In this document: piece after piece, positions 2-11,051 of the stretch
Layout of the letters: every line of letters begins with the position of its first letter
How positions within the stretch are numbered: position 1 is the stretch's first letter
Origin: Rhodothermus sp.
GTDB lineage: Bacteria > Bacteroidota > Rhodothermia > Rhodothermales > Rhodothermaceae
NCBI GenBank assembly: GCA_030950375.1
Contig: JAUZRN010000058.1
Span: forward strand, 1-36,859
Direction of reading: 5' to 3'
Length of the DNA: 36,859 bases
Made by a program: the position numbers and the translations under genes
The notes under the pieces: generated by a model
What the model was told of the DNA's origin: nothing
What the model saw: only the letters and a program-made list of their open reading frames with translations
Databases searched by the model: none

Positions 2-493
2 TGGGGTGGGTATCTGTGGTACCAGAAGCTGTTTGCTGCTTCGGAACTTTCTGCTGAGGCGCTTCCCGTCTTCGATGCCCGTCTGGTGCTTGTTTACATC
101 GGTTCGCCTACCTGTGGACCGTCTAATCACCCGGACCTTCCGGCGCTGTTGCAGACGGTTCAGGCTCGCCTGAGGGCACATGCTGAAACGCATCGGCAGG
201 GTGTGCACTTTGTCGGGATCGCCATCAGTCGTTCGCCCTCGGATGGTCTGCAACATCTGGAGCGGATGGGACCTTTCCATGAGGTGGCGGCCGGCGGGCG
301 GTGGGCCAGCCTGGCCTTTCGCGGTGTACGGGCGCTTCTGGGGGGTGCGACAGCCACACCACAACTGGTATTCTATCAGGAAACCAAAGACGAAGCCCGA
401 CTGCTGCTCCGGCTGGTCGGAATCGATCGAATTCGTCGGTGGGTGCAGGCCGGGATGCCGCTGCCAGCGGTGGATACTACACGGGCTCACTAA
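2..493 (+). CDS. Thioredoxin-like protein, 5' end outside the window
   Basis: The reading frame is open from the first bases of the window, so the N-terminus is missing. About 163 residues are visible. The first in-frame start in the window is a GTG at 86, but the coding-like sequence upstream (WGGYLWYQKLF) argues for a longer protein, perhaps with a membrane anchor. The segment VLVYIGSPTCGPSN looks like the first beta strand and active-site turn of a thioredoxin fold. It has a CxxS-type motif (CGPS) instead of CxxC. ATPQLVFY further on could be the cis-proline strand. A single cysteine in the motif would suit a peroxiredoxin-like or non-redox binding role; that is inference. It ends with TAA, and the next gene is convergent. 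Confidence 0.65.
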   Translation, partial: WGGYLWYQKLFAASELSAEALPVFDARLVLVYIGSPTCGPSNHPDLPALLQTVQARLRAHAETHRQGVHFVGIAISRSPSDGLQHLERMGPFHEVAAGGRWASLAFRGVRALLGGATATPQLVFYQETKDEARLLLRLVGIDRIRRWVQAGMPLPAVDTTRAH

Positions 494-4594: not shown

Positions 4595-4982
4595 TAACTT
4601 AGGATAACATGTTTTAGAAGTTAATTTTTAGAAAGCGCTTTTGTCATTTGCTTTACAAAAACTGACATCGCCACACGGAGACGGAGGCGTTCCGACAACG
4701 CGGCCACTATATGCTTTGAGCTGGGGACCAACCGTCTACCTGATGACCACAGCGATGGAAGCAAGGACATCAGGTACAAGATCCTTGATGCCTCGTCGGC
4801 TTCGATCGGGACAGCTTTTCCAGGGGCAGACACCAACCGTTCTGCCTGACTGTATGAAACCGTAAAGTGGCTCCCGATATACAGACAAGGCCGGCTGGAA
4901 CAGTTGGGAAATGCTACGACAATTAAGACGCATTACTGCATATGCGTCCACAGCGTCCGGACGCGCTCATACCACGCGGTTG
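4595..4982. other. Gene-free stretch upstream of amtB
   Basis: This covers the region between the amtB promoter and the end of the thioredoxin-like gene. Several frames of 60-75 codons are open on both strands, but none shows a recognisable motif or ribosome binding site. Two imperfect direct repeats (CCAACCGTCTACCTGA near 4730 and CCAACCGTTCTGCCTGA near 4834) lie about 100 bp apart. A decayed gene is possible but not shown. Confidence 0.4.
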
Positions 4983-5468
4983 TTAGGCTTCGTAGAAGGG
5001 CATGGTAGGGTCTGCCAGCCGTACGGTCACCAGGCGTCCATCGATGAACAGCAAAGCAACGGGATTGACGGGGGGCAGCTCCCGGCCCCAGACGTCTTTT
5101 ACCTCCGGGATCCACGCGTAATCGAAACGGAGTGGGTGCTGCTGGAGATAAATGCGTTGTCTGCCAGCATACACCACACGGGTGAACGCCTGCAGCGTAG
5201 GCCAGTATCGGTTCAGGTGATCTATTTCCACGGCGATGCAGGTCGCACATCCGCGTTCGTCCAGGATGATCCACAGCGACAACCGCCCTGATGGCTTCAG
5301 ATGGCCTTCTCGAAGGGCTGCCGCGGCCACATACTCGATGTAGTTTTCCGGCGTCATGACCTCGTGCTCATAGGTTGCTATCCGTTTCATTGCCTGTTGA
5401 TAGCGTACGAAGAGCCATCCCGACGCCAGAAGCAACAGCGTCAGCGCTGCATATCCCGCTCGGGTCAT
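4983..5468 (-). CDS. Membrane-anchored thioredoxin-like protein with CATC motif
   Basis: The protein has 161 residues. An N-terminal hydrophobic helix (about 5-22) should anchor it in the inner membrane with the rest in the periplasm. A thioredoxin-like domain follows. LWIILDERGCATCIAVE carries a CxxC motif (C74, C77) at the expected turn after the first long strand, and VNPVALLFIDG supplies a likely cis-proline (P136) and the following strand. This is read from the sequence pattern; the exact family is not recognised. The start codon overlaps the stop of the upstream propeller gene (ATGA), so translation is coupled. A dithiol-disulfide role on a partner outside the cytoplasm is inferred. The cysteine-rich peptide two genes upstream is an attractive candidate. 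Confidence 0.75.
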   Translation of the reverse strand: MTRAGYAALTLLLLASGWLFVRYQQAMKRIATYEHEVMTPENYIEYVAAAALREGHLKPSGRLSLWIILDERGCATCIAVEIDHLNRYWPTLQAFTRVVYAGRQRIYLQQHPLRFDYAWIPEVKDVWGRELPPVNPVALLFIDGRLVTVRLADPTMPFYEA

Positions 5469-6520
5469 GGCGTTGATCGCTGATCCTGGGCCAGCGCTGT
5501 GAGCACATTGGGGTAGCGTTTCAGGTAGACATCGCCGCCTTCGCGTTCCAGCGTATAGATGCCATTGTCGTCCACTGCCAGCGCCATCGGCATCCGAGCC
5601 AGGTCATAGGTGGCCAGGTAGCGTCCATCTTGGGTCGCGTAGACGTCGAGGTAGGAGAGGCGCTTCCGGTGCTCGTCGTGGATCGGTACCACCAGCAGGT
5701 ACGCATCGTAGACCTCGATCATGGCGGTAGAGAAAAGGGCCCAGGGCGAGTATCCCATGGCCATACTCTCGCCGTCAGCCTCGAACTGCACGTAATTCCC
5801 TTCGCTGGGCAGGTTGTCGATCGTAGCCACCGAGAAAAGTTGGCGTCCCTCAAGCGTGTATTTTTTGATAAACGGCTCAGACTCGCCCGCATAGTAGAAA
5901 TACCGTCCATCGAAAGCCAGGTCGCCGCTGTAACAAAGCGGCATTACTTTTCCCAGGTTCGTGCTCGCAAACCCGCGAACGACTTTTCCCTCCAGATCTA
6001 TGATATTGAAGAGATAGGCAGGGCTGGTGGGGGACAGGATCAGCAGTCTGTGCTCATCAACGACTTCACCGCGATATGCTTCTATCCCGATCTTTTTGTC
6101 CAGAACGAGTGTGTCTGCGATCGACCACACCACGAGGCGCGCGGATGAAAAGAGATAGATCCTGCCATGATGCACATCCATATCCGAGATACCGGTCACC
6201 TCGCCCGGCCCTTCCCCTCTACCCTTTCCAATAAAGAAAGGATGTCCTCGCAGATCCTTGCCGAAGACTGCTATTTTCCCCAGGTTTCTTTCAAACACAA
6301 AAAGATATTGGTCTGACTGGCAAAGTTGAGAAGGCTCATATAGCTCAAATGCAGAAAGATTCAGGCTATCGACCGCCTGGAGACGCGCTTTGATGAGCCG
6401 CTGGCGCAGGGACTGTTCCGTCCTGGCAAAGAAATCCAGTGGAGACTGGGGCGAAGATGATTCGGTCTTACAGCCAGCCAGCACGCTCCATAAAAAGACC
6501 AGAAGCGTTACGGTCCGCAT
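5465..6520 (-). CDS. Six-bladed beta-propeller lipoprotein
   Basis: The 351-residue protein begins with a lipoprotein signal (LLVFLWSVLAGC, lipid-bearing C17) and should be tethered to a membrane facing the periplasm or outside. The ATG at 6520 was chosen because it places this signal at the N-terminus; the frame stays open upstream to 6616. The body has repeated propeller-like strands: YLFVFERNLGKIAVFGKDLRG, GEGPGEVTGISDMDVHHGRIYLF, and YLDVYATQDGRYLATYDL near the end. These are typical of the 6-bladed propeller (BF3164/TolB-like) proteins of Bacteroidota. In that phylum such proteins are often encoded beside NVEALA-type peptides, and a similar peptide gene lies just upstream here. A peptide-binding or export function is inference. 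Confidence 0.75.
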   Translation of the reverse strand: MRTVTLLVFLWSVLAGCKTESSSPQSPLDFFARTEQSLRQRLIKARLQAVDSLNLSAFELYEPSQLCQSDQYLFVFERNLGKIAVFGKDLRGHPFFIGKGRGEGPGEVTGISDMDVHHGRIYLFSSARLVVWSIADTLVLDKKIGIEAYRGEVVDEHRLLILSPTSPAYLFNIIDLEGKVVRGFASTNLGKVMPLCYSGDLAFDGRYFYYAGESEPFIKKYTLEGRQLFSVATIDNLPSEGNYVQFEADGESMAMGYSPWALFSTAMIEVYDAYLLVVPIHDEHRKRLSYLDVYATQDGRYLATYDLARMPMALAVDDNGIYTLEREGGDVYLKRYPNVLTALAQDQRSTP

Positions 6521-6630
6521 AATGAACGTTCTTACAGATTGAAGTGTCGGTTTGAGCTCATTCTGGATCACAGAAGAAGCAGGGTCGGTAGCATCGCACA
6601 TAGCCGGACTGTTCACTGTAAATCATTCCA

Positions 6631-6652
6631 CAGTAGTATATCAGTAGTATAT
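6631..6652. repeat. Perfect 11-bp tandem duplication at the peptide stop codon
   Basis: CAGTAGTATAT is repeated twice without interruption. On the minus strand the copies provide the last codons (Ile-Tyr-Tyr) and the TGA of the peptide gene, followed immediately by the same sequence again. Loss or gain of a copy would alter only the end of the peptide and its spacing to the next gene. Confidence 0.8.
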
Positions 6653-6820
6653 ATCATCCTCTGCGTGACACGAGCCATTCCATCCAAAGCATGTGCTACA
6701 CCCTGTGCAGGCGGCAAGCGCTTCTTGCACAGAAAACCCAATCTGTCGGTGTTTCCAGGAGACCTCGACGTTCAGTACCAACAACAGGGCAGCAACCAGA
6801 CATGCAGCGACGGCTTTCAT
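6641..6820 (-). CDS. Short secreted Cys-rich peptide, NVEALA-like
   Basis: This 59-residue frame starts at an ATG preceded by AGGG at about 8 bases. The first 20 residues form a signal-like segment (MKAVAACLVAALLLVLN). A short linker with FSVQEALAAC follows, then a cysteine-rich tail (C38, C41, C44, C51; CTGCSTCFGWNGSC) and an acidic end. The overall plan, a signal, an xxEALA box and then cysteines, resembles the NVEALA peptides of Bacteroidota, which commonly neighbour six-bladed-propeller genes as this one does (gap 120 bp). The match to the NVEALA box is partial (VQEALA), so family membership is an inference. The opposite-strand frame at 6539-6985 has no signal of coding. Confidence 0.65.
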   Translation of the reverse strand: MKAVAACLVAALLLVLNVEVSWKHRQIGFSVQEALAACTGCSTCFGWNGSCHAEDDIYY

Positions 6821-10232: not shown

Positions 10233-11051
10233 ATGAAGCGCATGCATCTTCCCATTTCCCTGCTGGGATTCTGGTTGATACTACCGGCCACGGCGCTTCA
10301 GGCCCAGCCCCCACCCCTGTTTGAGCTCCAGGAGATTTCGATAGAAGCGCTTGATCCTCAGGCCCAGCAACGCTGGCAGGTGTTGCAACGACTTCCAATG
10401 ATGGTGCGGCTGCAGGTGGTGCGGCTTCCGGAGCAGCTCTGGCGCTATCGTGCTTTTACGCTGGCGGTGGATGCGGCGGGCTGTCTGGTGCTGGAAGAGG
10501 GCCAGGGTCTACGCGCGCTGACGGCGCGGCTGAAAGAACTGTCGGTGCTTTCGGAAGAGGCGGTGGCCTGGAACGGGCGGATCTACGCGGACGCGTCAGT
10601 AGAGGTGGGCGAAGTGTCGCTGGTAGTGATGCGGACGGGTGCGGTGACGGGTCATTTGTTGCTGGGGGATTGGGAGTACTGGGTGCGGCCGCTGAGTGAG
10701 GGGTTGCATGCGCTAGTGGAGATTGACCCGCGGAAGTATCCACGAGAGTGGCCGGGTAGTCCGTATTACGACGGTGGAGGGATTCCGGAGGAGCCGGTAC
10801 TCGCAGGGGTGTATCCGAACCCGGTGAGAGATCGGCTGGTGGTGCGCTTTGGGTTGCCGGCGGCGGAGGAGGTGGAGCTCAGGGTGTATGATGTGTTGGG
10901 ACGGGAGGTAGTGCGTCGGCAGCTGGGTCGCGTGGCGGCGGGGTGGCATCGGGTGGAGCTGGCGACGGGCGCCTGGTCGTCGGGTCGTTATGTGGTGGTG
11001 CTTCGGGTGGGTGAGCGTACGTTGACGCAGTCGATCACCCGGGTTCGGTAA
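10233..11051 (+). CDS. Secreted protein: metalloprotease-propeptide-like region plus T9SS tail
   Basis: This 272-residue protein has a signal peptide (residues 1-24, ending LQA). Residues 105-168 (AVAWNGRIYADASVEVGEVSL...GAVTGHLLLG...EGLHALVEIDP) resemble the N-terminal propeptide of reprolysin/M12-type metalloproteases; this is pattern recognition only. Residues 192-272 are a type A T9SS C-terminal sorting domain (VYPNPVRDRLVVRF, LRVYDVLGREV, SGRYVVVL). No HExxH is present, so the catalytic domain expected between the two parts is missing. It could be a deletion derivative or a free-standing inhibitor or binding module exported by the T9SS. The coding strand is strikingly G-rich at third positions (GCG, GTG, CTG, GGG), unlike neighbouring genes. 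Confidence 0.75.
   Translation: MKRMHLPISLLGFWLILPATALQAQPPPLFELQEISIEALDPQAQQRWQVLQRLPMMVRLQVVRLPEQLWRYRAFTLAVDAAGCLVLEEGQGLRALTARLKELSVLSEEAVAWNGRIYADASVEVGEVSLVVMRTGAVTGHLLLGDWEYWVRPLSEGLHALVEIDPRKYPREWPGSPYYDGGGIPEEPVLAGVYPNPVRDRLVVRFGLPAAEEVELRVYDVLGREVVRRQLGRVAAGWHRVELATGAWSSGRYVVVLRVGERTLTQSITRVR

Follow-up and report, generated by a model that had tools for sequence, protein, structure and literature searches.

The 36,859-nt Rhodothermus contig JAUZRN010000058.1 analysed here (the window) is part of a 3.03-Mb draft genome (G000) and contains a decaying copy of a three-gene module which is widespread in the Bacteroidota, encoding a short cysteine-containing peptide, a 6-bladed-propeller-type lipoprotein and a membrane-anchored thioredoxin-like protein, with two of the three genes frameshifted. 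The gene set, its order and conservation, the cysteine patterns, the assignment of the focal family to the thioredoxins and the frameshifts of the window copy were shown directly, and on balance we favour the view that the trio is a peptide maturation and display module, in which the thioredoxin-like protein would set the disulfides of the peptide and the propeller would bind it.

Three first-pass ORFs on the minus strand (6641-6820, 5465-6616 and 4983-5468) had been described in the earlier note as a four-cysteine secreted peptide, a propeller lipoprotein and a membrane-anchored CxxC thioredoxin-like protein, the latter two overlapping by ATGA. The three ORFs and the CxxC and hydrophobic N-terminus of the third are present, with the stop codon of the propeller gene and the start codon of the thioredoxin-like gene sharing the 4 bp at 5465-5468, but the description of the peptide applies to the ORF and not to the gene. 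The 59 aa ORF at 6641-6820 (minus strand), which has a signal-like N-terminal segment with FSVQEALA followed by CTGCSTCFGWNGSC, corresponds to the beginning of a longer peptide, and two tandem copies of the 11-bp unit CAGTAGTATAT (plus strand, 6631-6652) displace the frame of its tail. A tblastn search with the peptide of G003, a genome of the same genus, located this remainder at 6570-6638 on the minus strand (frame -2, 100% identity across 23 aa), where it contains further cysteines. The 59 aa are 74% identical to the intact peptides of G003 and of G027, a member of another Rhodothermales family, which are longer (80 and 93 aa, respectively) and have more cysteines, and since the window gene is truncated, the count of four cysteines is true of the truncated product only. 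The window copy is also a warning that short peptide ORFs taken from a single genome can be truncated genes.

The propeller gene (5465-6520, minus strand, 351 aa) starts at the ATG at 6520 (MRTVTLLVFLWSVLAGC, lipobox) instead of the GTG at 6616, and the additional GTG-initiated stretch overlaps the displaced peptide tail. Its lipobox (LAGC, in FLWSVLAGC) has a counterpart in the G027 propeller (ICAVLTGC), and the orthologs are 58-80% identical. The match of the window propeller to PF17170 is weak (E 0.0024, 17.5 bits, cut-off 22.9 bits), and co-aligned homologs scored above the PF17170/PF15869 cut-off with 29.1, 29.5 and 63.1 bits. An AlphaFold model of the propeller, for which the input was two sequences, had a mean pLDDT of 35, and a contig scan with the G027 propeller as query gave matches from G027 only.

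The third gene (4983-5468, minus strand) has a 161-aa ORF with a hydrophobic N-terminus predicted to anchor it in the membrane, CATC as its CxxC site and a conserved NP at the cis-proline position, and is ended approximately 20 aa early by a 1-nt frameshift, with the tail (TTAWYERVRTLWTHMQ) recognised by sequence match in another frame at 4933-4988. The lost residues correspond to the final helix in a low-confidence structure prediction (two sequences as input). In an alignment of 24 sequences of this focal family C76 is invariant, and C79 and P137 are nearly so. No Pfam family matched the protein above cut-off, but the family profile matched PDB entries 8t4c (E 7e-9), 3erw (StoA, 6e-5) and 4nmu (ResA, 1e-4), and from the CxxC and cis-proline positions and these profile matches the family is assigned to the thioredoxin oxidoreductases. 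It resembles TlpA, ResA and StoA in the membrane anchor, the CxxC site and the conserved proline, and differs from them in lacking a Pfam assignment and in being tied to peptide-propeller operons.

The damage is local to the trio, since the sigma-factor and baeRF genes beside it align to those of relatives without gaps. The copies in related genomes differ in their state: G027 has three intact genes arranged as in the window, in G003 the peptide gene is intact, the propeller gene is frameshifted and the thioredoxin-like gene is cut down to its first codons, and in G006 the thioredoxin-like gene is visible by its end only, at a contig edge. The exactness of the tandem copies and the perfectly preserved tail would also fit a reversible slipped-strand phase-variation switch in the place of decay, but the repeat has two copies only, the thioredoxin-like gene has a second, unrelated frameshift and the G003 copy is broken at other positions, which makes such a switch very improbable. 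The reading of the window copy itself as a working system is not supported, as two of its three genes are frameshifted.

To what extent the arrangement recurs was determined with a profile of the focal thioredoxin-like family, built from sequences gathered by similarity alone, which matched in 17 of 394 Bacteroidota genomes. When only similarity-based finds were counted (E < 1e-6, enough flanking sequence, not cut by a contig edge), a propeller gene was directly adjacent in 19 of 22 loci, commonly with a 4-bp overlap, and the three exceptions have one intervening gene (L090), a neighbour not recognised by the profile (L135) or a TlpA-like site (L138). A signal-bearing ORF with at least two cysteines was present just upstream of 14 of the 15 distinct propeller/thioredoxin-like pairs, and in the Bacteroidota units the short signal-bearing cysteine peptide is usually located 50-100 bp upstream of the propeller. 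Such an upstream ORF was found for 34/62 propellers versus 10/232 control genes (Fisher p = 7e-19), with several of the ten positive controls being propellers missed by the profile (NVEALA-associated or thioredoxin-linked). For the peptide, propeller and thioredoxin-like genes alike, dN is well under dS where dS is unsaturated, and the peptide frame is under purifying selection. The trio is thus conserved beyond chance, because dN is lower than dS, the gene order is kept in another family and the arrangement recurs throughout the phylum, which bears out the conserved peptide frame and gene order anticipated in the earlier note. Chance co-occurrence was rejected on the basis of the 19/22 adjacency, the peptide enrichment and the adjacency seen with a second thioredoxin-like family.

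This second family has a C-x-x-S/C/A-N site and occupies the slot of the CxxC protein in peptide-propeller units; across the phylum, about 30 of its 38 distinct loci have a propeller directly upstream. There are seven matches in G000, among which one gene may be split in two, and these include a CGPSN-containing protein at 2-493 (plus strand) of the window, approximately 4.5 kb from the focal trio. Its relative in G006 (84% identity) is encoded 8 bp downstream of a propeller which is itself preceded by a cysteine peptide, and by this comparison the window gene is assigned to a paralogous unit, the remainder of which would lie beyond the start of the contig. In G006 and G003 too, the focal trio shares its contig with an ortholog of this gene. 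The second family had no PDB profile match and could not be connected to the focal family by profile comparison, but TPQ is invariant, a single member (L196, CGPCN) exceeds the Pfam Thioredoxin_8 cut-off by 0.1 bit, and the family is probably thioredoxin in nature. Many members have C-x-x-S and hence lack the resolving cysteine, and are therefore not ordinary two-cysteine oxidoreductases; by analogy, a natural C-x-x-S site would resemble a trapping variant, and would suit holding or isomerising better than net oxidation.

The number of propellers per genome varies widely, with 23 in G000, 19 in G006, 58 in G141 and none in G001, and the difference between 23 or 19 and zero within a single genus points to rapid gain and loss. 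In G000 many of the 23 propellers have a cysteine-rich peptide upstream, several of which share a six-cysteine pattern, and the six cysteines are kept by paralogous peptides. Five loci of this genome (L158, L156, L157, L160 and L153) contain additional peptide-propeller-thioredoxin-like units with the pattern CxxDxC...C...C...C...C...E, part of them apparently intact and part frameshifted. Many other peptide-propeller pairs are without an adjacent thioredoxin-like gene.

With regard to known families, the peptide had been likened to the NVEALA type, and like NVEALA peptides it is indeed encoded immediately upstream of a 6-bladed propeller gene. The NVEALA/propeller loci of Bacteroides likewise consist of a short signal-bearing peptide with an -EALA-like region and a propeller lipoprotein directly downstream, but the Rhodothermales peptides have more cysteines and do not match PF14055: with E values up to 10 allowed, the window peptide gave no hit, and there was none in G000 or among 17 related peptides (0/17). 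A comparison of the NVEALA and peptide profiles was weak and mostly covered the signal segment. Membership of the NVEALA family was rejected on these grounds. To our knowledge, NVEALA-type peptide-propeller loci have no established function, and literature searches covering NVEALA, propeller-peptide loci of Bacteroides, MauE-propeller pairs and Rhodothermus propellers yielded no description of a peptide-propeller-thioredoxin system.

As a mechanism for the maturation and display module, we suggest that the cysteine-rich peptide would be exported via Sec and then cut after an AxA-like site before its first cysteine, that the anchored thioredoxin-like protein would form, reduce or rearrange its disulfides, and that the lipid-anchored propeller of the same operon would bind its own peptide and hold or display it. 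The idea of a dedicated redox partner, put forward in the earlier note, fits the specific tie of the focal and second families to the peptide-propeller context (19/22 and about 30/38). Such an association does not in itself identify the substrate, and the module is weakened by the many peptide-propeller pairs that have no thioredoxin-like gene next to them, by the C-x-x-S members of the second family and by the absence of MauE and signal peptidase near the window trio. A different client has to be considered, as the ATGA overlap couples the thioredoxin-like gene to the propeller rather than the peptide, and the enzyme may act on the propeller or in general periplasmic redox balance. The window and G027 propellers have a single cysteine in common, which is the lipidated cysteine of the lipobox, and this points to the peptide as the likely substrate of the redox protein; together with the confinement of both thioredoxin-like families largely to the peptide-propeller context, this makes the alternative unlikely. 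In the maturation and display module, the lineage-specific expansion of propellers favours a role in specificity for the peptide.

Several related operons contain additional genes. MauE (PF07291) is encoded within peptide-propeller operons of G167, G368, G407 and G141 (loci L091, L136, L149 and L147). The corresponding operons of G368, G141 and the Bacteroides-type G275 encode signal peptidase I. Both additions would suit a peptide that is secreted and carries disulfides. In one Bacteroides-type NVEALA locus, signal peptidase I and a CxxC lipoprotein are encoded downstream, and the Bacteroides CxxC lipoprotein showed a weak link to the focal family in profile comparison. RND pump genes flank peptide-propeller operons in G368, G407 and G141, and judged by this position the pump is a possible export route for the peptide. 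AcrB-type pump genes adjoin operons L149, L136, L134 and L147, an HlyD-type adaptor is present in L131, and small AraC-type HTH proteins (110-142 aa) are encoded next to peptide genes in L131, L127 and L133. In L136 (7032-8858, G407) an O-antigen-ligase-like protein with TPR repeats is encoded between MauE and the peptide gene. The L092 contig of G141 encodes a GG-leader cysteine-rich peptide upstream of a propeller (4931-5143, TIGR04149-like, just below cut-off), and also contains short C39-peptidase-like fragments. Near the window trio there was no MauE, signal peptidase I, RND pump or AraC-type regulator, and PF07291 had no match in G000. Elsewhere in the window, the protein encoded at 10233-11051 (plus strand) has a type IX secretion C-terminal sorting domain (PF18962).

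The adjoining RND pump genes would also be compatible with antagonism, in which the peptides are bacteriocin-like toxins, the propeller is an immunity or holding partner and the active, disulfide-bonded form is produced by the thioredoxin-like protein. Such a reading is favoured by the marked expansion in particular lineages, where many of the propellers of G000, G006 and G141 each have a different peptide next to them and G001 has no propeller, and disulfide bacteriocins such as sublancin have dedicated oxidoreductases. In the sublancin/BdbB system, as in the trio, the redox enzyme is encoded together with the secreted cysteine peptide, but the trio has no neighbouring glycosyltransferase or ABC exporter, in particular none with a C39 peptidase, and includes a propeller lipoprotein. 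As none of the 17 scanned peptides matched a recognised bacteriocin family above cut-off, we regard antagonism as possible but rather doubtful.

Another system with comparable parts is methylamine dehydrogenase, the genes of which encode the small subunit MauA, which carries a quinone cofactor, the propeller MauB, and MauD and MauE. The small secreted cysteine-rich protein, the propeller partner and the thioredoxin-like protein all have counterparts in the trio, and MauE is present in several related operons, so that the peptide could be conceived as a small catalytic subunit with quinone cofactor and the propeller as the large subunit. However, the peptides lack the conserved tryptophan pair and vary widely in both length and sequence, neither a MauG-like nor a radical-SAM gene for making the cofactor was noticed in the neighbourhoods examined, and there is no MauE near the window copy; a Mau-like assembly is accordingly highly improbable, and a quinone enzyme of the methylamine dehydrogenase type was rejected for want of the conserved tryptophans. 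In candidate RiPP clusters of Streptomyces identified with decRiPPter, MauE, in some cases together with MauD, accompanies a precursor containing eight or more cysteines, and the authors proposed a role for MauE/MauD in precursor modification (PMC7794033). These clusters belong to another phylum, and the passages of that article on which we draw do not mention a propeller.

Finally, the maturation and display module may be extended to a broader, more tentative proposal, in which a class of secreted disulfide peptides extends across the Bacteroidota. Each peptide would be made with its own propeller and with a dedicated thioredoxin-like protein belonging to either of two different families, the number of propellers would have risen above 20 in certain thermophile genomes, and the peptides would serve cell-cell recognition or antagonism; we consider this plausible, but with the odds somewhat against it. 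Some genomes have strongly expanded sets where close relatives have none, and this suggests that the units act in specificity or competition. The repeated presence of a dedicated thioredoxin-like protein, sometimes with MauE and signal peptidase, makes the gap in the function of NVEALA-type loci testable, and raises the questions of whether the peptide is disulfide-bonded, whether the thioredoxin-like gene is needed for that bonding, and whether each propeller is selective for its own peptide.
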